Shown: positions 7,223 to 36,848 of the stretch, one piece after another | Layout of the letters: each line of letters opens with the position of its first letter | Position numbering within the stretch: position 1 is the stretch's first letter | IMG/VR virus record: IMGVR_UViG_3300035698_028846 | Coordinates: 1-41,962 of that record | DNA: 41,962 nucleotides | Origin: a virus | Strand: one strand, 5' to 3' | Program-made: the position numbers and the translations under genes | The notes under the pieces: generated by a model | What the model was told of the DNA's origin: nothing | Seen by the model: the letters and a program-made list of their open reading frames with translations, nothing else | The model's database searches: none

Positions 7223-10200
7223 CTAGAACTCCTGTTGGGCGTCGCCGCCATACGGATCTGTCTGGACCACGCTTTCATACGACCCGCCTACCGAGTTGGC
7301 TCGTTGCTCAATGTAGTCGAACAGGCTGGTCAGTGCCTGGCTGGCTCGCTGAAACGCCCCGCCCGATTCGAATATTGCTGAGAACTCACTGACCTGGAGG
7401 GCGGTTGCCTCTTGCACTCCCACCATCGCTACCTGGAGAGCGGTGTATGCCTCGGTCTGGCCCTCGGTGTGGATGAGCATTGCCAACGCGTTGGCCTGCT
7501 GCTCCCCCCAGTACTCGCGCTCTGCCTCCATACGTTCGCCCTGAAACGCGAAGTTTTCCTGGAAGTAGGACTTGTCGGCGGTAAGCCTGCGCTGGGACAG
7601 GTTGTGCCGGTCCATGAAGTGACGACGAGACATATCCATCTCTCGCCGCGTCCACTGGATCCGCTGCTCAAAGAATTGCTTCCCGCGTGCGTGATCTTCC
7701 TCGGACCACTCGCGCCGCTGGTCCAAGCGCTCTCCCTGCTCACCCAGTTGGCCCTGCGCCATACCGAACTGAACGGTGGCCCGCTCGCGTTGCTTCATCA
7801 GCTGGCGACGCTGCCTGCCGGTGGAGTACCGCAATTGCTCGCCGATGTCCTCCATCTGCCAGCCGTACTGCATAGAAGTCTGGGCTCCCTTAAAAGCCAG
7901 GTCCTCCTCGGCCCAGTCGAACTTCTTTTGCTGCCGGCCGTACTGGATACCCATCTGCTCGCGCTGGTAGTTGGCTTGCCAGTCGAACCGCTGCGTCTGC
8001 AGCCCCTGGCGCTCGCCGAACTGCTGTAGGTTCATATCGAGCCCTTCCTGGGCAAAGCCGAACTGCTGCATCTGCCGGCCGTACTGCATCTGGCGCTCAG
8101 TGTCTTGGAAGCCGAACTGCTGGACTTGGTATGCTGCCTGCTGTTCGAATTGCGTCCGGGCCATGCCTTGCTTCCATAGCTGGTCCTCGCGGCCCATCTC
8201 ACGGCCCCGGGCCTGGAGATCCCACTGGGTCAAGTCTACCTCTTCGCCACCGACGTTGACAGTGGTCCGGCCCTGAGCATTGATGGTAATGTCCATGCCC
8301 TCCACTCCCGGCAATCCACCCGCTCCAGGAGTGCGGCGCAGGCTGGTCTCGCCACCCAGGATGCGCTGCCCCAGAATGTCGCCGCCCCAGTTAGAGCCGA
8401 TGCCCATGCCCGTTGTGGGATCCTTGGTCTGCCAGTCGGAAATACCCGCCTGCTGGCCCATCTCTGTCCAGGCCATCGGGCTGCCTTCTGCCATGCGTTG
8501 GAAGCGTCGGGCATCGGTCACTTCCATAGCACCTATGTCAAAGCCCATCGGGGCGGCACCGGCCATCTTCATCTGTTCCTGGAAAGGCATGACCATAGCA
8601 GCTACCCGGCTCTGCCTCCGCAGGTCAACCGGGTCGAGCCCAGCAAACTCCATCTGGTACTGAGCTGTCTCAGGGGCACCAAACTCATAGCCAGCCGCCT
8701 GGGCTATTCCTGTCGCGCCGACCGCTACCTGTTCCTGCTTACCTGGTGCGTAACGGGCCAGGCGGGCCGCCGCTTTCAGATCGTCCTTACTCCAATCAGG
8801 AGACTCGGGGGTGCGGCCTCCTCGGCCGTAAGACGCCAGGGCCTGGTCTGCCTGCGTGGGGGTGAGTCCGTGCTCGCGCTGAAGGTCCGTGGACGCATCG
8901 CGAAACGACTGAACGTCCTCTGTTGGTGGGGCTTCCTCGGCCTCTTCGGGAGACAGTATGCCTCCAAGGAGCCCGCCCCGGCCCCACCAGCTAGCAGCCT
9001 TGCCAATTGCTTCCTTGCCGCCCTCCCAGCCCACTGCTTTTGCCAGTGAGCCCCAGCCGGTCAATAACGCGGTCGCGGAAGCCTGATAAGGTGCCTTGAT
9101 AGCTCCCTTCAGTGCCCCCTGCCAGCTCTGGTAGCCCTCAAAACCCTCACCGCCCTTGCCCTCCAACGCGCCGCCCTCGCCATACAGTTCTCGTGATAGG
9201 GGCGCACCTATTTGAGCACCCAGGTAGCCACCCAAGACCATTGGGGTAGCAGCGCCGATGACGCTGCCTACCGCTCCCAGGCCTCCTGCCAGGCTAGCCA
9301 TGCCAGACGCTCCGGCCCCTGTCCCCATCATCCCGGCATACTTGGCGGCAGTCCCAGCAAGCATCCCAAGCCCCATGCGTGCACCAACTGCCCCTATGCC
9401 CAGGACGCCGGCGCCCATGGCGGCGTCACGTGTTGGAGACTCCTCAGTGCCGCCCATGCCCCCGATCCCTCTGACCGCACCACCAAAGATGTCCCAAGCC
9501 TGTTCGCCGAACTGGAGCTTCATGCGCTCCATGGCTCCCTGGCTCTGCATGATGTCGGTCACTGGGCCGGAGTAGCCCTCACCGATGCCCAACTGGGCCA
9601 TGGCTTGCTGCTGCTGGGCCTGGTAGCCTGCATAGTCCTGCATCGCGCCGCCGACCTGGCCCCCAGTGTACCGCCAGATGCGTTGGACGTTGAACATACC
9701 ATAGGCCAGTTGGCCCAGGTCTCCCCCGTACAGGCTCTTGCCTGAAGGGGCGAATCGCGCCAGCGCGGCACGCCCAGCACCTATTCGCTCGGGTGCCCCA
9801 AAGCCTGCGCCCATTGGCGCGGGTGTCAGGCCAGCTTGCTGCGCTTGCCGACCCAGCGCTCTCCACTGGCCTACCTCGCCGCGCATTCCCGCTGGCAGCC
9901 CACCAGGGAGTGACGCGGCCATGCCTACGACGCCTTCTGCCTGGCGAGCCATCACCCCTACATCGCGCTTCCACTCAGGGGTAGCCTTCAGCCGGCCCGA
10001 CTCAAAGTCGCTGATCTGCTGCTGCATGGTCTCGCCATACTTGCCCAGGTTCTCTCGCACGCTGCCGAGGGTTTCTGTGAACTTCTCCAGGGCATTTGTG
10101 GCTTCATCCACAGGAGAAACTGGCCCGCGTCCCCTGGCAGCACCTCTACCGGCCGGTCGCTCCTGGCCCAGATCCAGCGCGATGTCTTCCCCCTGCCTCC

Positions 10201-13200
10201 CCATCAGTTCCCCGATCTGGCCCAGCTGACCCGCTGTGGGGAACTTGCCGCCGCGCAGCCGCTCAAGCCCGGGCGCGACACCGGTCAGACCGAGACCAGA
10301 CACGCCGCGCAGGAACTCTTTCTCTCCCATGTCAGGCACTTGCTGCATGAACTGGGTGGCCATGTAGTGCTGCATCGGAGTAAACGGGGGCTTTGGTTCC
10401 CCTAGAGGCTTGAAGGTGCCAGAGATGTCCCCGGCCCCCGTGGACTGCCCGTAGAAGCGCACCCCGCCCCCTCCCATAAGTCCCTGGAGGGTCTGTTGCA
10501 TCAGGGTCAAGCCCTCTTGCGTGATCTTGGTCCCGGTTGCCTGTTCTGTGCCCACCGTGCGGGCCTCAGCAGCCTGCTCGTGCTCCTGGCGCAGCATGTC
10601 TTCCACAGAAGGATTCTGGAACGATGGACCGTGCAGCCCCTCGCTTGACTGTAGGCTGTAGCGGCTGTCACGCCGCCCGAATGTGTCTGCGTTGGGGTCC
10701 AGCTTGGTGTAGCGGGTACGGAAGGCAGCCTGCTCCTCGTCACCCATGCTCTGGAACTCCGCCTGCACTGCCGCGAACCGATCGCTGGAGGACGGCTTGC
10801 TGGCGATAGCACTGGTCACTGCATCAGGAGGGATGCGCTCCTTCTCAAGATGGCGGAGCAGGCCCGCCTCGCTCTCCTGAATGAAGGCTGGGACGTCGGC
10901 GGGCTCAGCATCGGATGGGTTCGGGAACTTCTCGGCGGCCGCGAACTTCTCGTACCGACCTGCAAACTGCTGGTACTGGTGATACTGACCACCCCGGCCA
11001 ATACTCATCTCCAGCCCGTACTTGCCTACTTCCTCTTTCCAGAGAGCCTGCGCCCCAGACCGGTCTTCCTGTTTCATCCCGCCAAGCAGCTTGTTCAGTT
11101 CCTTCCGCAGGGGAGACGTCTCTGGTTCCTTTTCCCATCCCCCCCCGGGGTCGCGCTGCCCTGCGCGAATTTGCTGTGACCTCTTGGCAAACTCATATAC
11201 CCCGGTCGCGCTTCCCTCTGCGGCAGGGTCAATGCCGATGACGGACCGAATTGTCTCAGCGATCACCTCGCGCAGTGCGGTTGAGCCGGTGCCAGTGCGT
11301 GTCTGCATCTCCTTCGCCACGCTCGTCTTGCTGGCGGTGGTGCCCAGCATCTGTTCCAGCACACCCATCCCGCTGCCCTGTGGGACCATCATCTCAACAG
11401 GAGCGTCGTCAGGCCCAGTGCCCTGGCGGGCAACGAAGTCTTCCCAGGTGCCCTCCAGCGGCCCACGAGCCATCTTCATTACCCTGGTAGCACTCTTTTC
11501 CCTGCCTGGTAGCGCAGCAGGATGCTCTGTTGCCTGTTCTGCCAATTTCTCAATACGGCTCCAGAGGTTCCAGTCCTTGACACGCTCCTTGTCACTCAGG
11601 TGTGTTAGCGGGGATAGGGCCTTGAAAGAGTCTAGCATTTGCTTGCCCTTCTCGGCAAGCCAGGACTTCTCCTTGCCAAACTCTGTGCTCTTGTAGGCCC
11701 CAGTGGAAGTCTTTCGCCACACCTTTTCACCAGGGACTGCGTCCCCTTTCGCGACCGCCTTGGCTGCGCCCAGCTCCAGCCCAACACTGAGGATAGGGGA
11801 TCGCTCGTGGAGTTCCTTCAAGGCTCCGCTGCGCTCTTCCTCCAACGCATCTGGTCCAGCGCTGAGCCCCCCATACACGGCCTCGCGGATGTTCTCCAGC
11901 AGTCCGCCGCGCTCTCCCGCTTGGTGTCTGCCTATTAGCCCCGTGAGGTTCTTCCACCGCTCCTCGTCTACGGCAGGGGACACCAGGCTGGCTGCAAGGT
12001 GTCTAGCCTCTATCTGTAGGGGCTCGTCGTTCTCGTCAGCCTGCATCTTCCTCAAGTCCAGCACATCATCAATTGTGTCATCGACGTAGCCCAGCAGGCC
12101 CTCGCGCACGTAGTTGTCTGGCTTTCCCTCTCCGTAGAGTCGGTCTCTCTGCCAGCCAAGCGACGCCAAGTTGAAGGAGCCAAGCCGCTCAACCACGTTT
12201 TGCCAGCCACCCTCAATGGGCTTCAGGTCCAACGCGGTCTGGAAGGGGATTGCCATTGATCGGCGAGCTTCCTCCAGCGCTGGGTGTCCTCTCATCCGGG
12301 CTTGGATGTTACGTATCACAAGATTGTATGCTTGGCCCTTGATCATGCCGCCAGTGACCTTCTCCTTCGACCTCTCCTGGAACTCGGCAAATGGTACCTC
12401 GGGGGCGTCCCTGGCTGTCTCGAGTTGTTCTCTGACCCCCGCCAGCGTGGAGCCTTGCTCCATCTTCTCCAGAGCCGAGCCCAGCTCGTCACTGATAGTG
12501 CCCGCCCTAAGCATTGTTCTGAGCTCAGCCTCGGTGGCTGCCTTGCCCTGTGCGTCGAGGTTCCACTTACCGTCTTTCTTGGTGTACCGCCCCTTGACCA
12601 GCCGCAGGAACTCGTCCACGTCCCAGTCCTTCTCTTGCATGTAAGCGACGGACTGGTTGACCCCGATCCTGCCACCAAATAGTTCGTTGATTTCTTCCCG
12701 TGACTCGGCCAGGCCACGTGTGATGGTCTCCTCTGGCTTCATGTAGCTGAGCGCGATCTTGCCTTGCCCAGGATCTACAATGGGATAGCCTGCCATGATC
12801 ATCTGGGGGCCAGGGATCTTCCCTGTGGTGACCAGGTCTTGAAGCTCTGCCAGGTCGTCCTCTGAGACTTTCCCGCTTGCGGCTGCGCCGAGCATTTGCT
12901 TCAGTATCCGGTCGCTAGTGACAAACTTGGTTAGGGGCACTCCCATCGCGGCTGTTGGGTGAGGACCAATCATTCGGCGTGTCTTTGCGCCAAGCAGGGA
13001 CTGGGCATGCTTCTTGGTGCTGCTGCCGACCATCAGGTCTTCGAACGCACTCTCTATCCTGCCAGAACGGTAGGTCTCTGCCATCTCGGCAAGCTCTTCT
13101 GGGGTGTAGTCCTTCGGGCCCTTGTCCTCTGGGATTATGTCGGGCGGTATGTAGTCCTCGCCCCTCAGTACGCGCTGCGACTCGCCTTCCAGTATCGAGG

Positions 13201-15682
13201 CTACAGCCCGCGGCAACTGATTGAGACGACTGACCTTGCGCTCTCCAACTTCGTGCTCCTGGAACCCATAGCCGAATGTCTGGGTAAGGGTCTGTGGGCC
13301 AGGGAAGTAACGGGTAGCCCCCTCGGCTCCCTCAAGAGCGATACCGCGGCCAGGGTGTGTCTCTCCGATGAGAGACATGACGAGAGACTGCATGGCCTCC
13401 GGTGCCTTGCTAGGGTCGTCGTAGCCGGCCTCACGCATCATGTCGCCGGCCTTCTCGGCGAACTTAGGCCACATCCTGCCAATTTCCTTAGCCGGGAGAG
13501 CCTTCTTGATGAACGCGGAGCCCACCTCGGACTCCGGGTCAACGTTGGCAGCGACGGCAGCCGCCAAGTGGGACATCATCCGCTGGTGGCCGACCCCCTG
13601 CTGGTGTATCTGCTTGGCCAGCCTGGGGTAATTCTCCCAGACGGCCTCTAGCGCATCTGTCTTGATCACTGATGCGCTACCAGCAAAGACCTGGGTACCC
13701 CTGACGGCAACGCGGCGCTGCATTCCTACGTCCATCACCTGGGCACTGATAGCCTCCTGAGTACCCGGAATTAGCGCGGCCTTAAGAGTCTTCTCGCTGA
13801 TGGCCTCGCCAGACTTGGGATTGTATAGCCGGCCCAGTTCAATTAGCTTCTGGGTCTCTGGGTCAGCCAGGTTGAAGGTCTGGGCTGGGAGCAGCCTCTC
13901 CTCCAGCGGGCTCTTGGGGCCCAGCATCCACTCCAGGAACTTCGCGCCGCTGTCCGTGTCCCACCGGCCCAGCTCCTCCCCCCAGATCTCCCTGCTCTCT
14001 TCGGGGGTGGCCACGGCTGCAACTGCTGCGCCAAGCTGGTGGGGCTCGTTGGGGGCGATGATCGCGTCAACGCCCATCGCTGTGGCGGTCTTGCCAAGAG
14101 AGGCACCGCCCTTCATAAAATGCTTAAGGGCCGTCAGCGCACCCGGGTGGGCGGTGCCAATTGCCTGAAACTGGATTTCTTTATACTCTTCGCCGGATCG
14201 GTCATACTTTGTTACGGTCTCGGCATGCTGCACAGTGACCTTCTCGAAGTCCTTGCCCCAGTCATAACCAACGTGGCTGCCAAATAGCCGTACGCGCTCG
14301 CCTGGCTTGAATGTTTGGCCAGGCTTGATGGTAAGGTCCTCGCCGGCTGGTAGCCTTACCCTGCGCGTCATTGTCCTTGTTGAACGACCAGCCGACTTGC
14401 CAAGCTCTGCACTGCCCTGGGGCAGCCATGCACCGAATGAGATCCAGGCGTCTGCTACCTGCACGGTCTCAGGGATTTCAGCCATCTGGCCCAGCACGTT
14501 GGACTGCACAGTCTCCAGCCCCGTGTAGGTAATTCCAAACTCCTGCATGAGCTGGCTTGTGCGCTTGGTTGATTTCCCGGGGTCACCTGTGACCACACTG
14601 ATTGGTAGGCCGGTCTCCTCGTCAAACTTAACTGAAAAGCCAGGCTCCTGTAGAGGAGCCTCGACGCTCGCTACCAGCCTGGATCCTCTGGCGAACTCTC
14701 GCTCCTTTAGGTCTAGTTCCCCCCCCTGTTCTGGCGTGCGCCCTTGCTGGAGCGCCCAGGCTTGTCCAATGGTAGCACCGGCTGCTCCTGACACCAAGCG
14801 TCCAGAGTCTTGTCCCTCACCCCTAGACTGTATGCTCTGTACCGCGCGCGGGGCGAAGTAGTGCGGCTCCTCCTCACCAGGCGGCCCAATCCATTCCTTT
14901 GCTCCACCCCGGGCAATGAACTCCTCGGCAACCGTTGTGTGGACCAGGCCCAGCACCTGTTCCTTGCTCATTGCTTCCACAGTAGACCAGGAAATGCCCG
15001 CCCGTGCAACGGCGACGTCTACGTTCTGGGCGCTAAAGCCGAAGAGGGACTGGGAGAGCGTGTACACCTCGCTGCGCTGGGGCATTACTTGGCCGATGTA
15101 TCCCGACCCTGCAGAGGACATGCCACCCCGCATTGCCGTGATGTCGGTCGCGCTCATGCCGGCGACTTGGCTCGGCGCGTCCCCAAGGTCTCTCTGCCAG
15201 GCTGCGGCCGTGATCGCCTGAACAAGAGGCTCTTTCCTCATCTTGGAGCGGCCAGGGATTTCAAGATCCCTGGCAATGCTGCGTAGCCCTTGCTCTTTAG
15301 GTCGTCCAGCCAGCGTCAGTTCGACAAGGGCGTCGTGACTCCGAAGCCGGCCCTCATACTCTGCCCGGCCTGGTAGGTCGGTACGCCGCGTGGCCCAAGA
15401 AGGAGTTGCAAGGGACGCAGGGTCTATGCCCTCACTCCAGGCAGGGTTGGTGGGAGGCTCCGGCGGACGTGCAGCCGCCTCGGCTCGCAGTCGTGCTAGT
15501 TCCGCTCCCTTCTCCCTGAATATGTCGGCAATGGTGGGCGGGGCTAGTGTCCAGCTCTCTTCCCCCCCGGGGCCACCAGCCCACTCATCAGCTGTGGGGC
15601 CGGTGGATACTATCGGCGGGGCAAGCGGATCGTCCTCACCGGGGAAGCCGTAGTCTGTTCGTCCAATTCGGATCTTGGCCAT
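7223..15682 (-). CDS. Giant tape-measure protein with putative RNA polymerase-like N-terminal half
   Basis: This is the longest gene, 2819 residues. The C-terminal part (about 1750-2819) reads as a tape measure. It has long helical, Gln/Met/Ala-rich stretches, a Gly/Ala/Met hydrophobic section at about 2085-2155 that could insert into a membrane, and regularly spaced aromatic repeats (QFGF, MQYG, RFDW, KFDW) at about 2490-2680. The N-terminal half is different, a mixed alpha/beta sequence. K524 and K531 precede GVDAIIAPNEP (537-547), as the beta-subunit Lys pair precedes PVDIVLNP. YPIVDPGQ (P967) leads to KDWDVDEF with D1019, D1021 and D1023, like the catalytic DxDGD loop. KGQAYN (1115-1120) and QTALDLK (1148-1154) resemble downstream conserved segments of YonO/QDE-1-type enzymes. 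The usual Gly of DxDGD is Val here. Tape measure is secure from size, composition and place after the tail chaperones. The polymerase reading is inference from motif order. Confidence 0.85.
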   Translation of the reverse strand: MAKIRIGRTDYGFPGEDDPLAPPIVSTGPTADEWAGGPGGEESWTLAPPTIADIFREKGAELARLRAEAAARPPEPPTNPAWSEGIDPASLATPSWATRRTDLPGRAEYEGRLRSHDALVELTLAGRPKEQGLRSIARDLEIPGRSKMRKEPLVQAITAAAWQRDLGDAPSQVAGMSATDITAMRGGMSSAGSGYIGQVMPQRSEVYTLSQSLFGFSAQNVDVAVARAGISWSTVEAMSKEQVLGLVHTTVAEEFIARGGAKEWIGPPGEEEPHYFAPRAVQSIQSRGEGQDSGRLVSGAAGATIGQAWALQQGRTPEQGGELDLKEREFARGSRLVASVEAPLQEPGFSVKFDEETGLPISVVTGDPGKSTKRTSQLMQEFGITYTGLETVQSNVLGQMAEIPETVQVADAWISFGAWLPQGSAELGKSAGRSTRTMTRRVRLPAGEDLTIKPGQTFKPGERVRLFGSHVGYDWGKDFEKVTVQHAETVTKYDRSGEEYKEIQFQAIGTAHPGALTALKHFMKGGASLGKTATAMGVDAIIAPNEPHQLGAAVAAVATPEESREIWGEELGRWDTDSGAKFLEWMLGPKSPLEERLLPAQTFNLADPETQKLIELGRLYNPKSGEAISEKTLKAALIPGTQEAISAQVMDVGMQRRVAVRGTQVFAGSASVIKTDALEAVWENYPRLAKQIHQQGVGHQRMMSHLAAAVAANVDPESEVGSAFIKKALPAKEIGRMWPKFAEKAGDMMREAGYDDPSKAPEAMQSLVMSLIGETHPGRGIALEGAEGATRYFPGPQTLTQTFGYGFQEHEVGERKVSRLNQLPRAVASILEGESQRVLRGEDYIPPDIIPEDKGPKDYTPEELAEMAETYRSGRIESAFEDLMVGSSTKKHAQSLLGAKTRRMIGPHPTAAMGVPLTKFVTSDRILKQMLGAAASGKVSEDDLAELQDLVTTGKIPGPQMIMAGYPIVDPGQGKIALSYMKPEETITRGLAESREEINELFGGRIGVNQSVAYMQEKDWDVDEFLRLVKGRYTKKDGKWNLDAQGKAATEAELRTMLRAGTISDELGSALEKMEQGSTLAGVREQLETARDAPEVPFAEFQERSKEKVTGGMIKGQAYNLVIRNIQARMRGHPALEEARRSMAIPFQTALDLKPIEGGWQNVVERLGSFNLASLGWQRDRLYGEGKPDNYVREGLLGYVDDTIDDVLDLRKMQADENDEPLQIEARHLAASLVSPAVDEERWKNLTGLIGRHQAGERGGLLENIREAVYGGLSAGPDALEEERSGALKELHERSPILSVGLELGAAKAVAKGDAVPGEKVWRKTSTGAYKSTEFGKEKSWLAEKGKQMLDSFKALSPLTHLSDKERVKDWNLWSRIEKLAEQATEHPAALPGREKSATRVMKMARGPLEGTWEDFVARQGTGPDDAPVEMMVPQGSGMGVLEQMLGTTASKTSVAKEMQTRTGTGSTALREVIAETIRSVIGIDPAAEGSATGVYEFAKRSQQIRAGQRDPGGGWEKEPETSPLRKELNKLLGGMKQEDRSGAQALWKEEVGKYGLEMSIGRGGQYHQYQQFAGRYEKFAAAEKFPNPSDAEPADVPAFIQESEAGLLRHLEKERIPPDAVTSAIASKPSSSDRFAAVQAEFQSMGDEEQAAFRTRYTKLDPNADTFGRRDSRYSLQSSEGLHGPSFQNPSVEDMLRQEHEQAAEARTVGTEQATGTKITQEGLTLMQQTLQGLMGGGGVRFYGQSTGAGDISGTFKPLGEPKPPFTPMQHYMATQFMQQVPDMGEKEFLRGVSGLGLTGVAPGLERLRGGKFPTAGQLGQIGELMGRQGEDIALDLGQERPAGRGAARGRGPVSPVDEATNALEKFTETLGSVRENLGKYGETMQQQISDFESGRLKATPEWKRDVGVMARQAEGVVGMAASLPGGLPAGMRGEVGQWRALGRQAQQAGLTPAPMGAGFGAPERIGAGRAALARFAPSGKSLYGGDLGQLAYGMFNVQRIWRYTGGQVGGAMQDYAGYQAQQQQAMAQLGIGEGYSGPVTDIMQSQGAMERMKLQFGEQAWDIFGGAVRGIGGMGGTEESPTRDAAMGAGVLGIGAVGARMGLGMLAGTAAKYAGMMGTGAGASGMASLAGGLGAVGSVIGAATPMVLGGYLGAQIGAPLSRELYGEGGALEGKGGEGFEGYQSWQGALKGAIKAPYQASATALLTGWGSLAKAVGWEGGKEAIGKAASWWGRGGLLGGILSPEEAEEAPPTEDVQSFRDASTDLQREHGLTPTQADQALASYGRGGRTPESPDWSKDDLKAAARLARYAPGKQEQVAVGATGIAQAAGYEFGAPETAQYQMEFAGLDPVDLRRQSRVAAMVMPFQEQMKMAGAAPMGFDIGAMEVTDARRFQRMAEGSPMAWTEMGQQAGISDWQTKDPTTGMGIGSNWGGDILGQRILGGETSLRRTPGAGGLPGVEGMDITINAQGRTTVNVGGEEVDLTQWDLQARGREMGREDQLWKQGMARTQFEQQAAYQVQQFGFQDTERQMQYGRQMQQFGFAQEGLDMNLQQFGERQGLQTQRFDWQANYQREQMGIQYGRQQKKFDWAEEDLAFKGAQTSMQYGWQMEDIGEQLRYSTGRQRRQLMKQRERATVQFGMAQGQLGEQGERLDQRREWSEEDHARGKQFFEQRIQWTRREMDMSRRHFMDRHNLSQRRLTADKSYFQENFAFQGERMEAEREYWGEQQANALAMLIHTEGQTEAYTALQVAMVGVQEATALQVSEFSAIFESGGAFQRASQALTSLFDYIEQRANSVGGSYESVVQTDPYGGDAQQEF

Positions 15683-16964: not shown

Positions 16965-18044
16965 CTACGAAGGCCAAGTGTAGTACGTTGGATCGCCGGT
17001 CTGGACCAAGTTCTCAAGCCAGACACGGAACGTGTCTGCAGCGGTCTGTTCCTGCGCGATGCCGGTGAACTGGAGCGCCAGCCACCCGCCGCCCACCAAC
17101 TCCGGTGGTCCGGCAGCCTGCCAGGTGAACTCTGGAGCGTAGACGTTCAGCTTCCAGGGGTTGGACATCCCAGTGGCGTTCCCGGGGCTGTTCAGATCGA
17201 GCTCGAAGGGAGCCGTGTGCACAGTCGGGGACCAGTCGATGTCGCCAGATCCCTCGACGTTGCTGCCTGTCAAGAGCGCCTGGTAGAGATCGGGGTCCTG
17301 CCACTTGTAGGTCCACGTCACAGACAGGGTCTGGTACTGGAGGATGAAGTCGTCGGGGTACGGGCTGCCGATGATCAGCTCCTCGCGTGGCGTGGTGTAC
17401 TGGTTGACCAGGTCGATCACCAGGTTGGTCGCTGGCTCCTCGACGTTGTCGAGCTTGAGGCTGCCCTGGTGAGCCAGAGGCACACTTGGGTAACGCTCAT
17501 AGGTGTTGTTGTAGGCCCACGTGTCCACCCCGACCAGCGAGAGCGCGGGCTCACGTCCGACGAAGGTAAACGCGCTGGTGGCAATAGCCCCGGGGGCCAC
17601 GGCCAGTCTCCAGCCAACAACCCGGCTGTCCAGCAAGAGCTCGCCGACATTGTCGCCTGTGCCCGTTGCCCCAGGGATGGAGCGCCGGACGGACATCCAC
17701 TTCATGTCGTAGTAGTTGTCAGGCGGGGTGAAGATATGGCGAGCCATTCCTGCCTCTGGGATGTCGTCAATGGTAGAGAGTTGCCCCACGGCCGCGTAGA
17801 GCAGCCAGCCGATGACGTCTTCCAAGCGCGGGTTCAGGATGGCCTGGCCTGCGCCAAACGCCATCTCCTTGTACGCGCCGGTGGGGTGGAAGCCTCCGCC
17901 AACCTCTGGCGGGAACTGCCTGATGGTCTGCTGCGGCCCAACATTGACACGGGACGCCTTGTGTCGATACCAGGTTGCGGCCAGGGTTCCCTTGGCTGCC
18001 TGGCCTCCATACGAGAATACTCCTTCTGTTGAAGCTACTGTCAT
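16965..18044 (-). CDS. Major tail (tube) protein
   Basis: The 359-residue product starts at ATG 18044, preceded by a perfect AGGAGG six bases upstream, the strongest ribosome site of the tail region as expected for a very abundant protein. An in-frame extension upstream to 18203 is rejected. The sequence is beta-rich, with features of large tail tube proteins: an N-terminal strand with FSYGGQAAKG, a central beta sandwich (VGWRLAVAPGAIATSAFTFVGREP) and a C-terminal second domain. It lies between neck genes and the tail chaperones, where the tube gene is expected. Its start overlaps the stop of a glycosyltransferase gene by ATGA, so the two are translationally coupled. Confidence 0.75.
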   Translation of the reverse strand: MTVASTEGVFSYGGQAAKGTLAATWYRHKASRVNVGPQQTIRQFPPEVGGGFHPTGAYKEMAFGAGQAILNPRLEDVIGWLLYAAVGQLSTIDDIPEAGMARHIFTPPDNYYDMKWMSVRRSIPGATGTGDNVGELLLDSRVVGWRLAVAPGAIATSAFTFVGREPALSLVGVDTWAYNNTYERYPSVPLAHQGSLKLDNVEEPATNLVIDLVNQYTTPREELIIGSPYPDDFILQYQTLSVTWTYKWQDPDLYQALLTGSNVEGSGDIDWSPTVHTAPFELDLNSPGNATGMSNPWKLNVYAPEFTWQAAGPPELVGGGWLALQFTGIAQEQTAADTFRVWLENLVQTGDPTYYTWPS

Positions 18045-19108
18045 AACACACCTCCTGTGGTGGTTGCGATGTCGCGGTAGACTTGACGCCAGTCCTGCCA
18101 TCGCGTGGCCATGTCGTGTCGCCGGGCGTCCTTGAGACCCTCCACTTGCAATGTTCGCCGCAAATGATTGTCCTCGATCAGCCTGCGCAACGCTCTGTCC
18201 CACGCTTCTGGTGTGTGCTTAACCAGTAGGCCGTTGTGGCGGTTCTGGACTGTGCCTCGGTACGACACACAGTTGGATGCAATCACCGCGCATCCCCCCA
18301 GCCTCTTGCCCACGGCTCTAGCAGCACACCAGCCCTCGATCGGCTTGATGGGGCTCTTCGAGCGGTTGAACTGGTCATCTGGATCAAGCGGGGCACACAG
18401 GATGTCTGCCTGAGCAAGCATCTCCGGGTACTGGCTGTAGTGGACTGGTGGTAGGAACCCTACCCCAAGCCCTTCCAGGTAGTCAGGTAGATACCCTCCC
18501 ACCAGAAGAGTCACTTCTGGGTAGTCCTCCAGCAGTCCGGGTAGCACTTCCTTCAGTACCTCCCAGTCGCGATAGTGGGTCTTGGTTCCCGCTAGCATGA
18601 TGGTCAGCCCATCAATCTCGCGCTTTGCCTGCCTTGCCGCCGCAGTGAACTTGTCGTATTCGATGGCGTTGGGCAAAACGTAGACCGGCTTGCCGCCACT
18701 CTCCTGCCTTGCCAGCGCCGCCAGTGTCTTGGTTGTAACGGTGACGGCGTCCACGTGGGCGATGTAGGGCTTCCAGGTACGGCCTGCCACCACGTCGGCC
18801 TCGCGGTACCTGCCACTGTAGTCATCGTCTGCCTCGTAGACTACCTTGGCTCCGTGCACCCGTAGAGCGTTGATGAGGCTTTCGCCAGCGTCTGGGTCCA
18901 CGGCCAGGGACCTGTGTAGGACAACTATGTCATTGCCGAACACGGGCTCCACGTCGTTGGTTTGCAGGAGGGCTGCAGCTCTTCGTAGGGTCATCCACGC
19001 GCAACTCTCCCCGCTGTTGTTGTTTATGTACATGAACGGCATGGTGATGCGGTAGATTTCTACCGCGCCTGCCATTCGTTTATTGCCGATCAGCCCGAGA
19101 ATGTTCAA
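18041..19108 (-). CDS. GT-B glycosyltransferase (GT4-like) in tail module
   Basis: The 355-residue protein has a GT-B layout. The N-terminal Rossmann-like half includes VVYEADDDYSGRYREADVVAG and a VLPNAIEYDKF segment typical of the domain junction. The C-terminal nucleotide-sugar half has TIMLAGTKTHYRDWEVL, LLVGGYLPDYL, LAQADILCAPLD and KPIEGWCAARAVG, followed by GCAVIASNCVSYRGTVQNRHNGLLV, the usual GT4 donor-binding region. The start is TTG behind AAGGAG at long spacing, which may keep its level low. It is the only enzyme inside the head-tail block and overlaps the tail tube start by four bases, so the tail tube or a neighbouring virion protein is a likely acceptor. Sugar and acceptor are unknown. 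Confidence 0.85.
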   Translation of the reverse strand: MNILGLIGNKRMAGAVEIYRITMPFMYINNNSGESCAWMTLRRAAALLQTNDVEPVFGNDIVVLHRSLAVDPDAGESLINALRVHGAKVVYEADDDYSGRYREADVVAGRTWKPYIAHVDAVTVTTKTLAALARQESGGKPVYVLPNAIEYDKFTAAARQAKREIDGLTIMLAGTKTHYRDWEVLKEVLPGLLEDYPEVTLLVGGYLPDYLEGLGVGFLPPVHYSQYPEMLAQADILCAPLDPDDQFNRSKSPIKPIEGWCAARAVGKRLGGCAVIASNCVSYRGTVQNRHNGLLVKHTPEAWDRALRRLIEDNHLRRTLQVEGLKDARRHDMATRWQDWRQVYRDIATTTGGVL

Positions 19109-20455: not shown

Positions 20456-21808
20456 TTAGATGTTGACTACCTGTCCCAGCTTGCGGATCGGGCCGGCGTA
20501 GAAGTACACCTCGAACCGGCGTGGATACATCTGCTGGTACTTCATGTAGGCGTCCCACGAGAAGCGCCAGATGCTCTCGGTGTCGTCTACTGGGGCTGGG
20601 TTGTAGGTTTGTGGTGGCTGAAGCACCCCAGAAACTACACCGCGCGGGCCCTTGATGAACACGCAGGCGTGCACTGGTCGGGCGTGGGTCACGTACCCGA
20701 ACACGGTGCCTCCCAGGTCGGTCTGGTAGTAGTCCACAGTCACGGGCTCGGTGAAGCTGAGGTGCGTGCTGTCAACTACCTCGTGGATCTCACGGACGAT
20801 GTTCTCAGCGTGGTCGAACTTCACACCGTTGATCACTTCCAACGTGGTGTTGGCCGCTGGGCGGAACGTGTGCAACGTGACCAGGTCGCCGGCCTCGAAG
20901 CCCACGGAGCTCGCCACGTCGATGCTGTGGGTTGCGCCAGACTGGCCGACCATCCACACCCCGTCTACCTTGTCGGCCGCCAGGCCGGTGTCGGGATCAG
21001 GGGAGCCGTCGCCCAGTGCGATGCTGACTCCGATTGTGGTCTGAGTCTGGACTTCGCCGCAGTTCCACAGGGTCATGATCGGGTGCTGGGCGAAGCGGCA
21101 GCTCTCATACTCGCCAACCTCGTAGTTGACGGTCATCACGCCGTCCGTGTATTGCTTCCGAGAGAGGAACTCCCCGGAGTCGTTATCACGGATGGTGTAG
21201 ACGGCCGACGGCGAGGAGATGGCGATGATGGGGTCCTGCGAGGGATCAGCCTGGTAGTCCTTGCCCAAGTGCACCGCTCGGCAGACGTCCAGGTCGAACA
21301 CGTCGGTTGCATCCAGGTCGCCAAAGTCACTGGCGTTGCCTGCAAACATCACCATGGACTTGCGCAGGAAGGCGTTCCGGGCCAACAGGTCCAAAGAGCC
21401 GACCATGTGGGGAGCCAGGCGGTCGCCTATGATCCGGCGGAGGCCAGGCTGGCCGTTTTCCTTCCAGTAGGTGATGTAGTCGTCGTACTTGTGGAGCTGT
21501 ACCTTGTCGCCGTAGCGGGAAGCGGTGATTTCCAGCTGGCGGGAGTCCAGGTAGAGCTGGGGCAGCCAGATCGCCCGGTTGTCGAGGGTGGCGATGTTAT
21601 GCTCCGGATCCAGGACCTGGGTGAAGACCATCTTGCCGGCTCGCTGCGCCAGCAAATTCACGCCATAGGTCACCATCCCATAGAAAAGGGACTTGAACCG
21701 GAATGCCTCGAGCAACTCAGGGACGTAGACTGTCCGCTGGTTCTTGTCGAAGTCCTCCCACGGCGTGTCGCCGTAGTAGGTATCGAACCCTGTATTTGGA
21801 TATGCCAT
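20456..21808 (-). CDS. Major capsid protein
   Basis: The 450-residue protein lies directly after the scaffold gene and has a strong ribosome site (AAGGAGG before ATG 21808). The N-terminus has helices such as VPELLEAFRFKSLFYGMVTYG and an arm-like first 30 residues. The middle includes a helix and loop region (YKENGQ-type, then RRIIGDRLAPHMVGSLDLLARNAFLR), consistent with the HK97 fold spine helix. Residues about 235-345 look like an inserted beta domain (SIALGDGSPDPDTGLA, HSIDVASSVGFEAGDLVTLHTF), common in larger capsid proteins. The end, YPRRFEVYFYAGPIRKLGQVVNI, resembles N4-gp56-type capsid proteins. No protease gene is visible, and the arm may not be cleaved. Confidence 0.85.
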   Translation of the reverse strand: MAYPNTGFDTYYGDTPWEDFDKNQRTVYVPELLEAFRFKSLFYGMVTYGVNLLAQRAGKMVFTQVLDPEHNIATLDNRAIWLPQLYLDSRQLEITASRYGDKVQLHKYDDYITYWKENGQPGLRRIIGDRLAPHMVGSLDLLARNAFLRKSMVMFAGNASDFGDLDATDVFDLDVCRAVHLGKDYQADPSQDPIIAISSPSAVYTIRDNDSGEFLSRKQYTDGVMTVNYEVGEYESCRFAQHPIMTLWNCGEVQTQTTIGVSIALGDGSPDPDTGLAADKVDGVWMVGQSGATHSIDVASSVGFEAGDLVTLHTFRPAANTTLEVINGVKFDHAENIVREIHEVVDSTHLSFTEPVTVDYYQTDLGGTVFGYVTHARPVHACVFIKGPRGVVSGVLQPPQTYNPAPVDDTESIWRFSWDAYMKYQQMYPRRFEVYFYAGPIRKLGQVVNI

Positions 21809-26625: not shown

Positions 26626-27651
26626 TCACGCATCAAATATGCCCACAGAGTAGATCTCTTCCAGCCGGTCTATGATGGGGTCCCAGTCCAGATGCTTGTC
26701 AGCGTATGCCAGGGCCCCGATTGTCAGCTTGTGTATCAGTGAGTTTCTCTTGAGCAACAGCTTCCTGCCTGCCCGGAGAAGCTTGTCGTAGTTGTAGTTG
26801 ACGCGCAAGCAGTTCCTGCCGCCAATGAGATCATCGCTGCCCTCGATGATTGCCACAACGCTGGTGGTCCCGCAGGCCATCGCCTCCACAGGAGCACACG
26901 CTCTCCCCTCGTAGCGGCTGGCTTTCAACAGGAACAGTGCCTGGGAGTACATCTGGCGCATCTGCAAGGTGGTCGGCTTTAGCTGGAAGGAGTCGAACTC
27001 CCGTATGTACGGGTTGGACGTGGCCGCGTAGCCCCACAGCTTGACGCCAAACTCTTCCCGCAGTTGCATCGCCACCCGCCAGCCAATCTCTTCGACGTCC
27101 TTCGCCTGGTTGCGGGCATCCCCCTCTACGAGGATGGCGCGTTGTTTGTCTCCGTCAGGATAGAAGTCGTCTCGGTTTACGCCATTCCCGATGACGGCCG
27201 AGGGCAATTCCCACAGATCCCCCATGGTGTCTTGTAGCCATCGGGCTATGGTGATGACCTGGAAGCCGGCCTCCTTTGCTAGGGCGTAGGACGCCTTGGC
27301 GGCTCTGTGGCCAGCAGTCTGCGGGCCGAAGAACTCGTGCTCCATCATCTGCACGAAGTAGTAGCGGCATGGCTGCTCCCACCGCAGGTGCACCGGTATC
27401 TTGAGGGCGATGTCCACAGTCTGGTAGCCGGTGGCCACTACAGCGTCGAAGGGCTTGGCGTTGTAGAAGAACCCGAATGGGGCAATCGGCGCGTTCAGCT
27501 CCATCCACTTGGGCTTCTGGTGTCCCGGGGCCGCCACAGTGACGTCGTGCCCCCTGGCGGTCAGCCGATTGACGTGCTCGAAGATGATGCGGATCCCCCC
27601 GCAGGGGCCTACCCCAGGGGTCAGGTAGCAAATTCTCAGTGGCTCAGTCAT
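26626..27651 (-). CDS. GT4-type glycosyltransferase
   Basis: The 341-residue protein has GT-B hallmarks. The N-terminus CYLTPGVGPCGGIRIIFEHVNRL with GHDVTVAAPG is the acceptor-side start typical of GT4. VIGNGVNRDDFYP (about 154-166) is the domain crossover. A donor domain ends in LLKASRYEGRACAPVEAMACGTTSVV, the EX7E-like motif, and DLIGGRNCL. The start ATG follows GGGAGG and overlaps the end of the next cassette gene. It is the last gene of the cassette, next to the terminase. It probably adds a sugar from a nucleotide donor in the cytoplasm, with an unknown acceptor. Confidence 0.85.
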   Translation of the reverse strand: MTEPLRICYLTPGVGPCGGIRIIFEHVNRLTARGHDVTVAAPGHQKPKWMELNAPIAPFGFFYNAKPFDAVVATGYQTVDIALKIPVHLRWEQPCRYYFVQMMEHEFFGPQTAGHRAAKASYALAKEAGFQVITIARWLQDTMGDLWELPSAVIGNGVNRDDFYPDGDKQRAILVEGDARNQAKDVEEIGWRVAMQLREEFGVKLWGYAATSNPYIREFDSFQLKPTTLQMRQMYSQALFLLKASRYEGRACAPVEAMACGTTSVVAIIEGSDDLIGGRNCLRVNYNYDKLLRAGRKLLLKRNSLIHKLTIGALAYADKHLDWDPIIDRLEEIYSVGIFDA

Positions 27652-28333
27652 AGTGGCCTCCCTTGATCTGTTCCTTCACATAGATTGAACCGCCACGCTT
27701 GTGAGTGACACAGTAGTTGGTGGCGTGCCAGTGGTGTGTCACCATCGCCTTGTTCACAAATACGTACCGTGCCCCGGCCTGTACTGCGCGGAGATGGAAG
27801 TCCCAGTCAGTGGCTGGCCCAGCCTCGTTGGTGAAGCCCTTAACCTTGCGGACCAGGTCGGTGCGGAACAGGCACATGGGGAAGTTGATCCAGTTGTGCC
27901 GCTTGAGCATGTCCGTATCCATGGGCTCGCCGGCCGACTGTATGGGCTTGGGGACCTGTAGCTGCACGCAGTGGGCCACGTCTGCGGCGGTCTCCTCGAG
28001 GGTCTTGACCATCGTGGTGAGAAAGGACGCTCCCCACTCGTCATCATCCTCCAGGTTGGCAAAGTAGGCATGCCCCTCGTAGAAGTGGTGGAAGGCTTCG
28101 TTGAGAGCATAGCCCAGGCCGCGCTTGGGCAGTACCAGGAATCTGATCTTCGGGTGGTCCAGCACGCCGCTCAGAGCCTTGACATACTCGTCTGTGTTAA
28201 ACGACCCCCCATTCTTGGCGATGACCAGGTTCCAGTTAGTATACTTCTGGTGCAGGAGCGACTTCACCGCCCGGCAGCACATGTCGGGTCGGTTCAGTGT
28301 AGGAATAGCGACGAGAACCATTGGTCTTTTCAC
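27644..28333 (-). CDS. GT2-type glycosyltransferase (GT-A)
   Basis: The 229-residue protein shows the GT-A fold of family 2. VLVAIPTLNRPDMCCRAVKS and LVIAKNGGSFN form the nucleotide-binding start. ANLEDDDEW (about 91-99) is the DxD metal-binding motif. TNEAGPATDWDFHLRAVQAG is the usual ED/WD acceptor-side segment. The start is GTG behind GGAG. It overlaps the GT4 gene by eight bases, so the two products probably act in one pathway. It lacks membrane segments and so would work in the cytoplasm. Confidence 0.85.
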   Translation of the reverse strand: MKRPMVLVAIPTLNRPDMCCRAVKSLLHQKYTNWNLVIAKNGGSFNTDEYVKALSGVLDHPKIRFLVLPKRGLGYALNEAFHHFYEGHAYFANLEDDDEWGASFLTTMVKTLEETAADVAHCVQLQVPKPIQSAGEPMDTDMLKRHNWINFPMCLFRTDLVRKVKGFTNEAGPATDWDFHLRAVQAGARYVFVNKAMVTHHWHATNYCVTHKRGGSIYVKEQIKGGHYD

Positions 28334-28334
28334 G

Positions 28335-28532
28335 TCAACTCCTCTGGGCTGGCCGAAAATACGCGACCGTCCGGAAACGGTCTGCCTCCTCTTGGGTCAC
28401 GGTTTCGCAAGTAGGCTGGCCCAGCGCCACGTAGTCTTCCCAGTGCTTGATAGCCACTTTGCTCATAGAGTCGTCGCGCGCCATGAAGATGGTCGGCGCA
28501 TCTGCAACCTTGATACAACAGTCAAAATCCAC
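28335..28532 (-). CDS. Small unknown protein in glycan cassette, 65 aa
   Basis: The product starts at GTG behind AGGAGG and ends directly before the GT2 start. It contains CCIKVADAPTIFMARDDSMSKV and a helix IKHWEDYVALGQPT, with Asp-rich and aromatic residues, and has no membrane segment. The strong ribosome site and tight spacing argue it is real. It could be a small partner of the neighbouring transferases, but nothing in it identifies a family. Confidence 0.6.
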   Translation of the reverse strand: MDFDCCIKVADAPTIFMARDDSMSKVAIKHWEDYVALGQPTCETVTQEEADRFRTVAYFRPAQRS

Positions 28533-28546
28533 GTTTCCTCCTATGT

Positions 28547-29323
28547 CTAGCCGAACTTCGGCAACCAGTCGCTCAGCAGGTATCTGTAGTCCTTCGGTAC
28601 GTCCAGGTCATTCGAGCACACAGGGGCTCCTCCTGGCTCCAGCATGCGGTAGGGGGCCGCTTGCCTGAACACCTTTCCTTCTGGTGGCAGGCCGGCCTTG
28701 CCCCAGCGCCCCATTTCCAGGGTCCATCCCCACTTCTCGCGGTGGCGGTACTTGTCCCCCAGTCGGCGGTACATCCGCGCCGCCTCGGGCGTCAGCAGCG
28801 GCGTAATCACATGGCGGCCCTTTACCAACACTTGGCAGGGGGCCGGCTGGGCGAGAACCTCCGTCAGCCCCTCGTCTGACCACACGAAGTCGCACTGGAG
28901 TATCACCAACTGGTCCCACCAGTCGGTGCCAATCATGTCCAGGGACTGCATAGCCGAGTTGTCGTAGCTCTTCAGGTCGGGCTCGGGCATCAGCAATGGA
29001 ATGCCGTGCTCGGCAACATGCCGCAGCCGGTCGTAGGTCCAGGGCGGCTGGTCCACCTCTGCCATTGCCTCAGCCGGCAGGTTACTGGTGGGGTTGGCGA
29101 CACACTTCTTGAGAAACCCCGTGTACCGGCACCCCGGCCGTCCGATGGCGACGAAGACCTGGTAATCCAGTAGCTGTAACTGGTTGCTCAGGCGGCCAAC
29201 CGGCGTGTCCCCATACTCCCAGCCGATGGGCAACAGCGCTTCTGGGCAGCAGGGCGGGACGCCGATGAAGTTGTAGCCTACAGCCTTGTACCCCGCCGCG
29301 AGAATGATAGCAACTTTCTTCAT
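28547..29323 (-). CDS. Nucleotidyltransferase-like protein (sugar-phosphate type)
   Basis: The 258-residue protein begins KKVAIILAAGYKAVG, like the LAAG opening of sugar-1-phosphate nucleotidyltransferases, followed by EALLPIG and GRLSNQLQLLDYQVFVAIG. A VILQCDFVW segment sits where the product-binding Asp is expected. The usual GxGxR and PK residues are altered, so activity is uncertain. A related protein is encoded at 30986-31738: both share PWT...G.PLLMP.P and a C/GDxVF/W strand. The gene overlaps the GT9 gene by ATGA. A role in making an activated sugar or alcohol for the transferases is likely but not proven. Confidence 0.65.
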   Translation of the reverse strand: MKKVAIILAAGYKAVGYNFIGVPPCCPEALLPIGWEYGDTPVGRLSNQLQLLDYQVFVAIGRPGCRYTGFLKKCVANPTSNLPAEAMAEVDQPPWTYDRLRHVAEHGIPLLMPEPDLKSYDNSAMQSLDMIGTDWWDQLVILQCDFVWSDEGLTEVLAQPAPCQVLVKGRHVITPLLTPEAARMYRRLGDKYRHREKWGWTLEMGRWGKAGLPPEGKVFRQAAPYRMLEPGGAPVCSNDLDVPKDYRYLLSDWLPKFG

Positions 29324-30096
29324 GACTGACTCCTTTTGTATGCCGGATCGAACGTGTTCTCCTCGTCCGGGGCCGGGCCGTCGCCCAGCAGGTGTACCAC
29401 CATCGGAACGATGCGTCTGGGGGCCCAGCGCCAGCCCGCTACCCAGCTATTGGGTACGTACTGCGATTCTGGGCCAGACCGCTGCTTGCGGTTGAAGATG
29501 ACCACCATGGGCCGCTCCAGCGCCGCGCCCACATGCAGGAAAACCGAATCTATCGTTATCAAACAACGCGCCTTGGCCACCACGGCTGCTGCCTCCCTGA
29601 TAGCCAGGGGGGCATTGTCTACTCCCTGGCAGAGGAGGGGGCCGTTGTCAATTTGCTTCACGTGATAGCCCTTGCCTACAAGGAACGCTGCCAAGCCGGC
29701 CATGCGCTTGTAGGACCGGCCGCCGTGCGGGTACTTGTTGGCCATGGCCACGTCACATCCCTGGGCCGCCTCTATCTCCTCCGGCAACAGGTATAGCCGG
29801 GGAAGGCTCCGCTCCACACCCAGCGTGTCGCACTGGGCAAAGCACATCCAGGTGTGTTTATCCCAGCAGTCCGCGTGGCACACACGGAAAATGGGGTCGC
29901 CCTTGTCCCAGTCGAATGGCCGGCCCCACAGAACGATTTCCTCTATCCGTGGGTCGTGCAAGATCAGTTGCTCATAGCCGGGCGTGACCATGAAGGAGAC
30001 CTCTGCACCTGGGAACCGCTTCTTCAGCCCTGGGATCGCGGCGGTTAGGCTGAGCACGTCGCCGTGCCCTGCTGGCCGTCTAAGTTGGATCCGCAT
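29320..30096 (-). CDS. GT9 heptosyltransferase-like glycosyltransferase
   Basis: The 258-residue product fits family 9 (ADP-heptose:LPS heptosyltransferase type). RRPAGHGDVLSLTAAIPGLKKRFP and VSFMVTPGYEQLI with DPRIEEIVLW form the N-terminal half. The C-terminal donor half ends in ARCLITIDSVFLHVGAALERPMVVIF, the (D)SG.xH.A-like region. It is shorter than bacterial heptosyltransferases (about 330). It follows a DUF4254-like small gene often seen with such enzymes. Transfer of a heptose-like sugar is expected, but the donor is not defined. Confidence 0.85.
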   Translation of the reverse strand: MRIQLRRPAGHGDVLSLTAAIPGLKKRFPGAEVSFMVTPGYEQLILHDPRIEEIVLWGRPFDWDKGDPIFRVCHADCWDKHTWMCFAQCDTLGVERSLPRLYLLPEEIEAAQGCDVAMANKYPHGGRSYKRMAGLAAFLVGKGYHVKQIDNGPLLCQGVDNAPLAIREAAAVVAKARCLITIDSVFLHVGAALERPMVVIFNRKQRSGPESQYVPNSWVAGWRWAPRRIVPMVVHLLGDGPAPDEENTFDPAYKRSQS

Positions 30097-30304
30097 ACAC
30101 CTTGCCCCCTATGTCGCGCTCTCCCAGCCGCCTGTCTATCGCCCTCACCAGCTCGTTGCGCTGCCCATTGGCGACCTGAATAGCCTTGGCCTCGGCCAGT
30201 GTGGCCGTGCCATCTGTGACACGGTCTATCAGGTGCCAGATGCGGATGTTGATCACAGTCAGCTCGTCTATCATCTGCCCCAGCGTCTTCGTCTCAATTC
30301 CCAT
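30080..30304 (-). CDS. DUF4254-like small protein linked to glycosyltransferases
   Basis: The 74-residue protein reads LGQMIDELTVINIRIWHLIDRV, then EAKAIQVANGQRNELVRAID. This helix pair, with a conserved ELx(I/T)N and N.QRN.L...ID pattern, resembles the DUF4254-type proteins that accompany heptosyltransferase genes. It starts at an ATG behind AGGAGG and overlaps both neighbours. It may act as a regulator or partner, and the family's biochemical role is unknown. Confidence 0.65.
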   Translation of the reverse strand: MGIETKTLGQMIDELTVINIRIWHLIDRVTDGTATLAEAKAIQVANGQRNELVRAIDRRLGERDIGGKVYADPT

Positions 30305-30989
30305 CTTGCCTCCTGAGTATCATGCTGGCAAAGGTGTAGTAGTGCACGAAGTTGCCAGCGTAGGTGTAGTCGTGCTCGCCGCCGAACCAGTCGAAGCCTC
30401 TCTGCCGGCCAATCTCATACAGGGCCATCATCTCGGCCTCGCCAAACTTGATGTTCTTGGGCTTGTCGGGGTGGTAGTCTGTCGTGATCGCCACAAGGCC
30501 TCCGGGGTTGACCAGGTCGAGCATTCTATTGAAGAACCTTACTCGCTTGGCCGCGTCCCGGTCGCTGGTGGCAATCCGCTTCGATGCGTCTGCCGAGACG
30601 TGCTCTATGACGCTGATGGACACAACGGCGTCGAACTTCTCGTTAGAGACGTACTCACCAGGGAAGAGCTGCTGGACGTAGGGCAGGGAGATGCCGAGCC
30701 GCGCCTCTTGCTCCGACGTCCAGTCGTGGCAATCCTTGCGGTCAACCTGCATTATGTCCATGTCGAGCATGGCCGCTGCTGGTGCGAACAGGGAGGCTCC
30801 CCCGCCGATCTCGAGGACGGTCTCCGCCCCGTTGGCTACCAGCGCGGTCAGCACCAACCCGTACTCCCAGGCGCGGTGCGGGTGGTCGAACCTGTACGGG
30901 ACGCCCGCTAGGCCATGCCTGACATCGAGCACATGCGGCACCTCGGCAATGTCGTAGGTGTTTGATTGCAGTGTCTGGGAATAGATCAT
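30294..30989 (-). CDS. Class I SAM-dependent methyltransferase
   Basis: The 231-residue protein has motif I ETVLEIGGGASLFAPAAAMLDMDIMQVDRKD, with Asp at the end of strand 2. KFDAVVSISVIEHVSADASK is the motif IV region and LDLVNPGGLVAITTD is the post-IV segment. The C-terminus (HYYTFASMILRR) closes the fold. It lies between the DUF4254-like and a nucleotidyltransferase-like gene, so a sugar or glycan intermediate is a plausible substrate. ATG 30989 follows GAGGAGG. Confidence 0.85.
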   Translation of the reverse strand: MIYSQTLQSNTYDIAEVPHVLDVRHGLAGVPYRFDHPHRAWEYGLVLTALVANGAETVLEIGGGASLFAPAAAMLDMDIMQVDRKDCHDWTSEQEARLGISLPYVQQLFPGEYVSNEKFDAVVSISVIEHVSADASKRIATSDRDAAKRVRFFNRMLDLVNPGGLVAITTDYHPDKPKNIKFGEAEMMALYEIGRQRGFDWFGGEHDYTYAGNFVHYYTFASMILRRQDGN

Positions 30990-31738
30990 ACTGGGTCCTC
31001 CTCTGCCAGGGCGAGAATGTTCTTCCAGGAGTGGTGGCTCACCTCTATCCAGTCCTCCATCATCCAGTCAAAGACATCCTTGCGCTCGCCCCAGACCTTG
31101 CTGGGGGCGCAGGTTCCGCGCCTGGCCCAGACCAGGGACTGGTCCTGGTTGGGCAAGCTCCGGAGAAAGCTGAGGAACTTCATAAAGGCTCCCCTGGTCA
31201 GGAACTCTATAGAGTGCTTTGTCCAGAACCAGAATTGGGAAGGCCATGCGGTCCAGTCCAGCAGGTACTGTAGGAACCCTGTCCTGAAGACATAGTCGCC
31301 AGCAGTGATGACAATGCGATCGCAGTCCTCGGCAAGTATCGCCGGCGCCATCTTGAGCAGCGTGGTCCAGCAACTCTGCCCCTTAGCGTGGGGGTCGGGC
31401 ATCAAGAGGGGGAAGCCGCCCTGCTCGATGACGTAAGTCACCTGCTCGTCAGTCCAGGGGCTCTTCCCATAGTCGCTGACGCCCACTCCATAGACCTCTG
31501 CGTCGTGATACTCAACCACGGTGGGGTCGCAGCCGGGGTTCCCCATGCCCACGAAGACCTTGTCTACCCCCATCTTCTTGTACCACTGTGCCATCTGCCT
31601 GGAGAGGACGGTGTGGTCTGGGGCGAGTTGCCAGAACATCTCTGGTGTCCTCTCTGGGATAGGGTAGCCCTTCTTGCGTGTCCTGACTTCCTCTACGGGA
31701 TCCCAGCCCGCGCCGGTGATCGCAACGACGGTCTTCAT
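30986..31738 (-). CDS. Second nucleotidyltransferase-like protein
   Basis: The 250-residue protein starts KTVVAITGAGWDP and shares with the 28547-29323 product a PWT...V...GGFPLLMPDP segment and a RIVITAGDYVF strand, in the position of the Asp strand of nucleotidyltransferases. The G.G.R signature is again absent. Pro-Glu rich PIPERTPEMFW near residue 28 may be an active-site variant. It overlaps the methyltransferase gene by ATGA. The two probably are paralogues that arose by duplication and may have diverged in substrate. Confidence 0.55.
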   Translation of the reverse strand: MKTVVAITGAGWDPVEEVRTRKKGYPIPERTPEMFWQLAPDHTVLSRQMAQWYKKMGVDKVFVGMGNPGCDPTVVEYHDAEVYGVGVSDYGKSPWTDEQVTYVIEQGGFPLLMPDPHAKGQSCWTTLLKMAPAILAEDCDRIVITAGDYVFRTGFLQYLLDWTAWPSQFWFWTKHSIEFLTRGAFMKFLSFLRSLPNQDQSLVWARRGTCAPSKVWGERKDVFDWMMEDWIEVSHHSWKNILALAEEDPV

Positions 31739-32495: not shown

Positions 32496-32561
32496 TTCCC
32501 TCTCCTTATAATGGATTGTTTGCCGCGAATAAAGCCGGGGTGTCGTGGGGTTCTTATCTTC

Positions 32562-36847: not shown

Positions 36848-36848
36848 A

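Follow-up and report, generated by a model that had tools for sequence, protein, structure and literature searches.

Can a single phage protein be both the ruler of the tail and an RNA polymerase? The question is raised by a 2819-residue gene in the window, a 41,962-base virus record from IMG/VR that we analysed over its whole length and in which terminase, portal, major head protein and tail genes, the 2819-residue gene among them, form a head-tail cluster. Because this gene is very large and placed after the tail tube gene, we assigned its product as a siphophage tape measure, an assignment that the hydrophobic stretches near residues 2087-2155 also fit (Table 1). The initial annotation had located a polymerase-like domain within the tape-measure gene itself, and this is what we found: residues 340-1275 of the 2819 lie in one open frame with the tape measure, and the relatives described below are alike. 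Ahead of the domain there is a Rho_N-like motif (PF07498) that stays under the Pfam cut-off in the window (E 2.6e-4), passes it in the relative L016 (E 4.3e-7, 30.2 bits) and is just under it in L011 and L013; judged from sequence, residues 133-160 are a possible nucleic-acid-binding element preceding the polymerase domain.

Table 1. Position of the tape-measure gene, its domains and motifs, and two neighboring structural genes in the window.
Feature	Position	Strand	Evidence
Tape-measure protein gene, 2819 residues, with N-terminal RNA polymerase-like domain	7223..15682	-	Single open frame; directly after the tail-tube gene and two small tail genes; same place in relatives
Two-barrel RNA polymerase-like domain, residues 340-1275	11858..14665	-	AlphaFold model; Foldseek against PDB, ranks 1-20
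Rho_N-like motif, residues 133-160	15203..15286	-	Pfam PF07498
C-terminal tape-measure part, residues 1276-2819, Gln/Gly/Ala-rich	7226..11857	-	Composition, hydrophobic stretches
Two hydrophobic stretches, possibly membrane-spanning, residues 2087-2113 and 2125-2155	9218..9424	-	Kyte-Doolittle window scan
K520 and K524, conserved Lys pair, beta-like barrel region	14111..14125	-	K520 19/22, K524 21/22
G965-Y966-P967, RxP-strand equivalent	12782..12790	-	P 22/22, R 18/22
DWDVD, Asp triad D1019/D1021/D1023, DxDGD equivalent	12614..12628	-	Three Asp in 22/22
KGQAYN 1115-1120, (M)GxxYN segment after the Asp triad	12323..12340	-	G1116 19/22, Y1119 16/22, N1120 16/22
QTALDLK 1148-1154, YQxxLD segment	12221..12241	-	D1152 20/22, Q1148 18/22, L1151 18/22
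Tail tube protein gene	16965..18203	-	Pfam Phage_tube_2 E 2.8e-6; phrog_290 E 1.7e-7
Major head protein gene	20456..21808	-	phrog_1357 E 3.3e-4; 63-74% identical in nearest clade

Two further observations concern other genes of the window. A glycosyltransferase group 1 gene (18041-19108) is placed among the structural genes for head and tail, just upstream of that for the tail tube, and the region 26626-37706 holds a cluster of glycosyltransferases, methyltransferases, a sulfotransferase and a B12-binding radical SAM protein, in a number that is unusual for a phage and possibly connected with glycan or DNA modification.

Used directly as a query, the domain gave no match in viral contigs, annotated phages, genome contigs or PDB sequences. 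Relatives were found via the major head protein, and the genes occupying the same genomic place were taken as their tape measures; among 50,697 annotated phage records no relative was found, the head protein giving one marginal partial match. In the nearest clade (99/99 support) the head proteins are 63-74% identical. The N-terminal domain is 46-47% identical to that of the window in L011 and L016, 28% in L013, 22% in L015 and 19% in L018, with values of 11-16% in further relatives. The conservation counts given here refer to 22 aligned domains from tape measures 11-47% identical to that of the window. The carriers are an uncultivated siphophage group, apparently a distinct and widely distributed lineage, and the same design recurs among more than twenty diverged tape measures. 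An additional 2741-residue frame of tape-measure size in the 90.8-kb record of L003 (L111:11777-19999) shows GRDP followed by GDKDAD and a weak profile match (E 5.5e-5), and may perhaps hold a still more diverged polymerase domain.

At the level of sequence, neither Pfam, PHROGs, PDB sequences nor PF00623 returned a significant RNA polymerase match for the domain, and profile-profile comparisons with gp96 and gp64 of the Thermus phage P23-45 and with E. coli RpoC were all non-significant. A core-motif profile run against known polymerases among decoys likewise reached no significance, although the Asp motifs of TSP4, gp96 and AR9 and the RxP strand of gp64 fell in register with it. Many families of the two-barrel superfamily are reported to lack significant sequence similarity to one another beyond the DxDxD region (PMC10770324).

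The fold was more informative. Built from 22 sequences, an AlphaFold model of residues 340-1275 reached a pLDDT of 64.5 and a pTM of 0.49, a moderate confidence; the block means lie at 72-93 across residues 900-1059, and pLDDT falls below 50 around K520/K524. When this model was compared with 350,542 PDB chains using Foldseek, ranks 1-20 were all two-barrel RNA polymerases, which are mutually homologous and count as one event. The best match was a chain of the phage AR9 polymerase (E 5.6e-5, probability 1.00), and the top 20 included the largest subunits of Pol II and Pol III, Thermus and archaeal enzymes and also second-largest-subunit chains, from ASFV and Pol I. Whole-chain TM-scores were low (0.07-0.27). 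In a viral structure library the top match was an annotated phage DNA-directed RNA polymerase (E 3.5e-4, probability 0.98). A second model, made for the relative L049, had poor quality at the Asp triad, and its matches were weak, the first being a bacterial RNA polymerase chain (E 0.08). The secondary structure predicted around D1019-D1023 runs strand, helix, loop with DxDxD, strand, an order that fits the classical barrel. Between the barrel regions the model places about 300 mostly helical residues, whose relative placement is not reliable and which could be a clamp. Structure prediction thus supports, at the moderate confidence of the model, the two-barrel kinship that had been proposed for this region.

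All the motifs named in the initial annotation are present at the residues given there, namely K524, K531, GVDAIIAPNEP from 537, YPIVDPGQ with P967, KDWDVDEF, KGQAYN at 1115-1120 and QTALDLK at 1148-1154. Four residues, P967, D1019, D1021 and D1023, are invariant across the aligned domains, and the conservation of the three Asp in the aligned homologs is complete. The one motif that needed correction is the Lys pair, which had been set at K524/K531: K531 is not conserved, and the pair is K520/K524. These two Lys are found in near relatives; in distant ones the aligned position is occupied by K-(G)xxx(x)-K. Three residues separate K520 from K524, whereas seven lie between K1065 and K1073 of the E. 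coli beta subunit. The order Lys pair, RxP, DxDxD, (M)GxxYN, YQxxLD is common to nearly all aligned tape measures, and at the triad distant relatives mostly show [GA]D[aromatic or aliphatic]DxD, as in GDWDAD, GDFDLD, GDIDKD and ADFDKD.

Could an ordinary tape measure have acquired, by chance, an Asp-rich loop resembling DxDGD? Such a coincidence would agree with the outcome of the sequence searches, none of which was significant, and shuffling the window's tape measure alone produces DxDxD by chance about 18% of the time. Over the family, DxDxD occurs in 24/24 aligned tape measures against about 4 expected when each sequence is shuffled, although the proteins are related and do not amount to 24 independent trials. 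The invariance over 22 tape measures, together with the 20 RNA polymerases that top the fold search, leaves chance resemblance scarcely credible. The proposal of a diverged two-barrel RNA polymerase-like region in the N-terminal half is borne out by the fold search and by the conserved predicted active-site residues, and we regard the domain as very probably homologous to two-barrel RNA polymerases. What the results show is a kinship of fold with RNA polymerases, the conservation of predicted catalytic residues and, in more than twenty diverged phages, a fusion within one open frame at the position of the tape-measure gene.

Whether the domain still works as a polymerase is a separate matter, on which two replacements bear. 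The Gly of DxDGD is Val in the window, as the initial annotation had read it, and Gly is missing almost throughout the family, being absent from all 24 aligned members but L085 (DNDGD). The RxP Arg, which in cellular enzymes is thought to help recognise the ribose of the incoming nucleotide, is present in E. coli RpoC, AR9 gp270 and P23-45 gp96 and gp64, and is kept in 18 of the 22 aligned domains; in the window, L011, L016 and L015 it is replaced by Gly. With both the RxP Arg and the DxDGD Gly replaced, we have less confidence in the window protein as a fully competent polymerase. The Gly, for its part, is typical rather than defining, since the superfamily motif is given as DxDxD in the 2024 description (PMC10770324).

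These replacements are what one would expect had the domain come from a two-barrel RNA polymerase and lost its catalysis, wholly or partly, in the window's clade, to persist in the tape measure in a structural or DNA-binding role. Yet that same clade, at 22-47% identity, retains the three Asp and K524, which would be unexpected in an inactive protein, and we consider a loss of catalysis unlikely. The missing Arg could also be read as a sign that an enzyme of the same fold acts during DNA entry on another substrate or template, as a primase or with a relaxed choice of sugar, and the same barrels are indeed found in archaeal DNA polymerase D (PMC10770324). Most relatives keep the Arg, however, and the precedent nearest in function is an ordinary RNA polymerase, so that a change of substrate is very improbable. 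We infer that the domain is probably catalytically active as a polymerase.

That precedent is gp96 of the hot-spring Thermus phage P23-45, a tape measure of 5,002 residues in which an active virion RNA polymerase makes up the N-terminal part (PMC10770324). Its active fragment spans residues 327-1124, with 779-DFDGD-783; the protein is found in virions and transcribes the pre-early genes (PMC10770324), and the tape-measure-fused virion polymerase was proven by biochemistry and a crystal structure in 2024 (PMC10770324). In view of this precedent the arrangement in the window is of a known kind, and the suggestion that it was new falls away. As in the window, the polymerase of gp96 precedes the rest of a giant tape measure and has the Asp triad; its RxP strand has an equivalent in the window that keeps the Pro and has Gly for Arg. 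The two phages also agree in the order of their genes, from terminase, portal and head protein through the tail proteins to the tape measure. Carriers of the gp96 type are the Thermus phages P23-45, P74-26, G20c and TSP4 (PMC10770324). We considered whether the window protein might belong to the gp96 sequence family, and this was ruled out: the two show no significant sequence similarity (hhalign probability 0.2-2%), and a tblastn search with gp96 retrieved ten Thermus phage records and no others.

The window protein differs from that of P23-45 in its undetectable sequence similarity, its changes at the active site, its longer segment between the barrels and the apparent lack of a second polymerase. 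Where gp96 keeps DFDGD and RNP, the window has DWDVD and GYP, and the connector between the barrels, short and disordered in gp96 (613-679), takes up about 300 residues in the window. Neither the window nor two 82-kb relatives, records that may be incomplete, yielded a second phage polymerase: PF00623 revealed none in 12 records, most of which are fragments, and the two 82-kb relatives had no other frames of at least 330 residues with DxD[GAKRLWSV]D. Counts of intergenic words in the window and two relatives gave no repeated promoter-like motif, though the early region may lie outside the window. The same count, run on P23-45 (L102) as a positive control, recovered CATAAAGGAATAA, an AT-rich repeat that is plausibly the promoter motif, likewise AT-rich, reported for the virion polymerase of this phage.

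Other known polymerases resemble the domain in part. The best structural match, the non-virion RNA polymerase of phage AR9 (PDB 7s00, 7s01), was obtained with chain d, whose length agrees with that of the beta-prime N-terminal subunit gp270. In gp270 the motifs follow the order seen in the window, RNP and then LTLGISNNLLSALSGDYDG, with a GDYDG loop. Unlike the protein described here, the AR9 enzyme is multisubunit, non-virion and not fused to a tail protein, and it keeps the RxP Arg as well as the Gly after GDYD. QDE-1 and gp66 of crAss-like phage have both barrels in a single chain, as proposed here, and neither is fused to a tape measure. The similarity to QDE-1 claimed in the initial annotation holds in so far as this enzyme is within the top 20 of the fold search; at rank 20 (E 0.76) the match is weak. 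The crAss-like gp66 (6VR4) was not among the 50 fold matches listed. YonO was cited in the initial annotation as a further single-chain two-barrel polymerase.

Taken together, these results lead us to favor, with a probability of about 0.7, the reading that the tape measure carries a single-chain double-psi beta-barrel RNA polymerase, at residues ~340-1275, which is packed in the tail, expelled and transcribes the entering genes. Presence in the virion, injection, early transcription and catalytic activity are suggested by analogy with P23-45 gp96. In such a scheme, which resembles the one proposed for P23-45, the tape-measure protein would be packed inside the tail tube as a ruler and, on infection, would be expelled with or ahead of the DNA. 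The C-terminal part, with its hydrophobic stretches, would then help form the entry channel, while the N-terminal polymerase would transcribe the first genes as they enter. Within the active site, the catalytic magnesium would sit at D1019, D1021 and D1023, opposite K520/K524 on the other barrel, and the segments G1116-N1120 and D1152 would make up the bridge/trigger region. The virus thus probably delivers its own RNA polymerase together with its DNA.

In two related phages the halves of the protein are conserved to different degrees. Between L011 (9011-17065) and L015 (9608-17494) the C-terminal part is 64% identical over 842 residues and the polymerase part about 25%, and this difference suggests, on sequence grounds, that the polymerase half is exchanged or is changing very fast. 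In the sister phages L081, L087, L089, L093, L094 and L097, genes of tape-measure size gave no match to the polymerase domain, which offers a natural comparison with and without it. The head proteins of L087, L089, L093, L094 and L097 are about 28-32% identical to the L033 query. We put forward only tentatively, as a doubtful but possible history, that a large uncultivated siphophage lineage has made the fusion independently of the Thermus phages, has no second phage polymerase, has an altered active site (lacking the DxDGD Gly and, in the window's clade, the RxP Arg) and passes the polymerase half from phage to phage with the tape-measure half left in place. If true, phages would have arrived at such fusions repeatedly as a means of transcribing their DNA while it enters.

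For work on the superfamily, the family provides a sequence signature by which such polymerases can be recognised even where the usual family searches draw a blank, and its natural active-site variants, with loss of the DxDGD Gly and of the RxP Arg, test which residues a two-barrel polymerase needs. The fusion has so far been reported for a few Thermus phages. Because more than twenty diverged tape measures, in which no sequence kinship to gp96 can be detected, show the same design, it may be a general coupling of genome entry with the first transcription.
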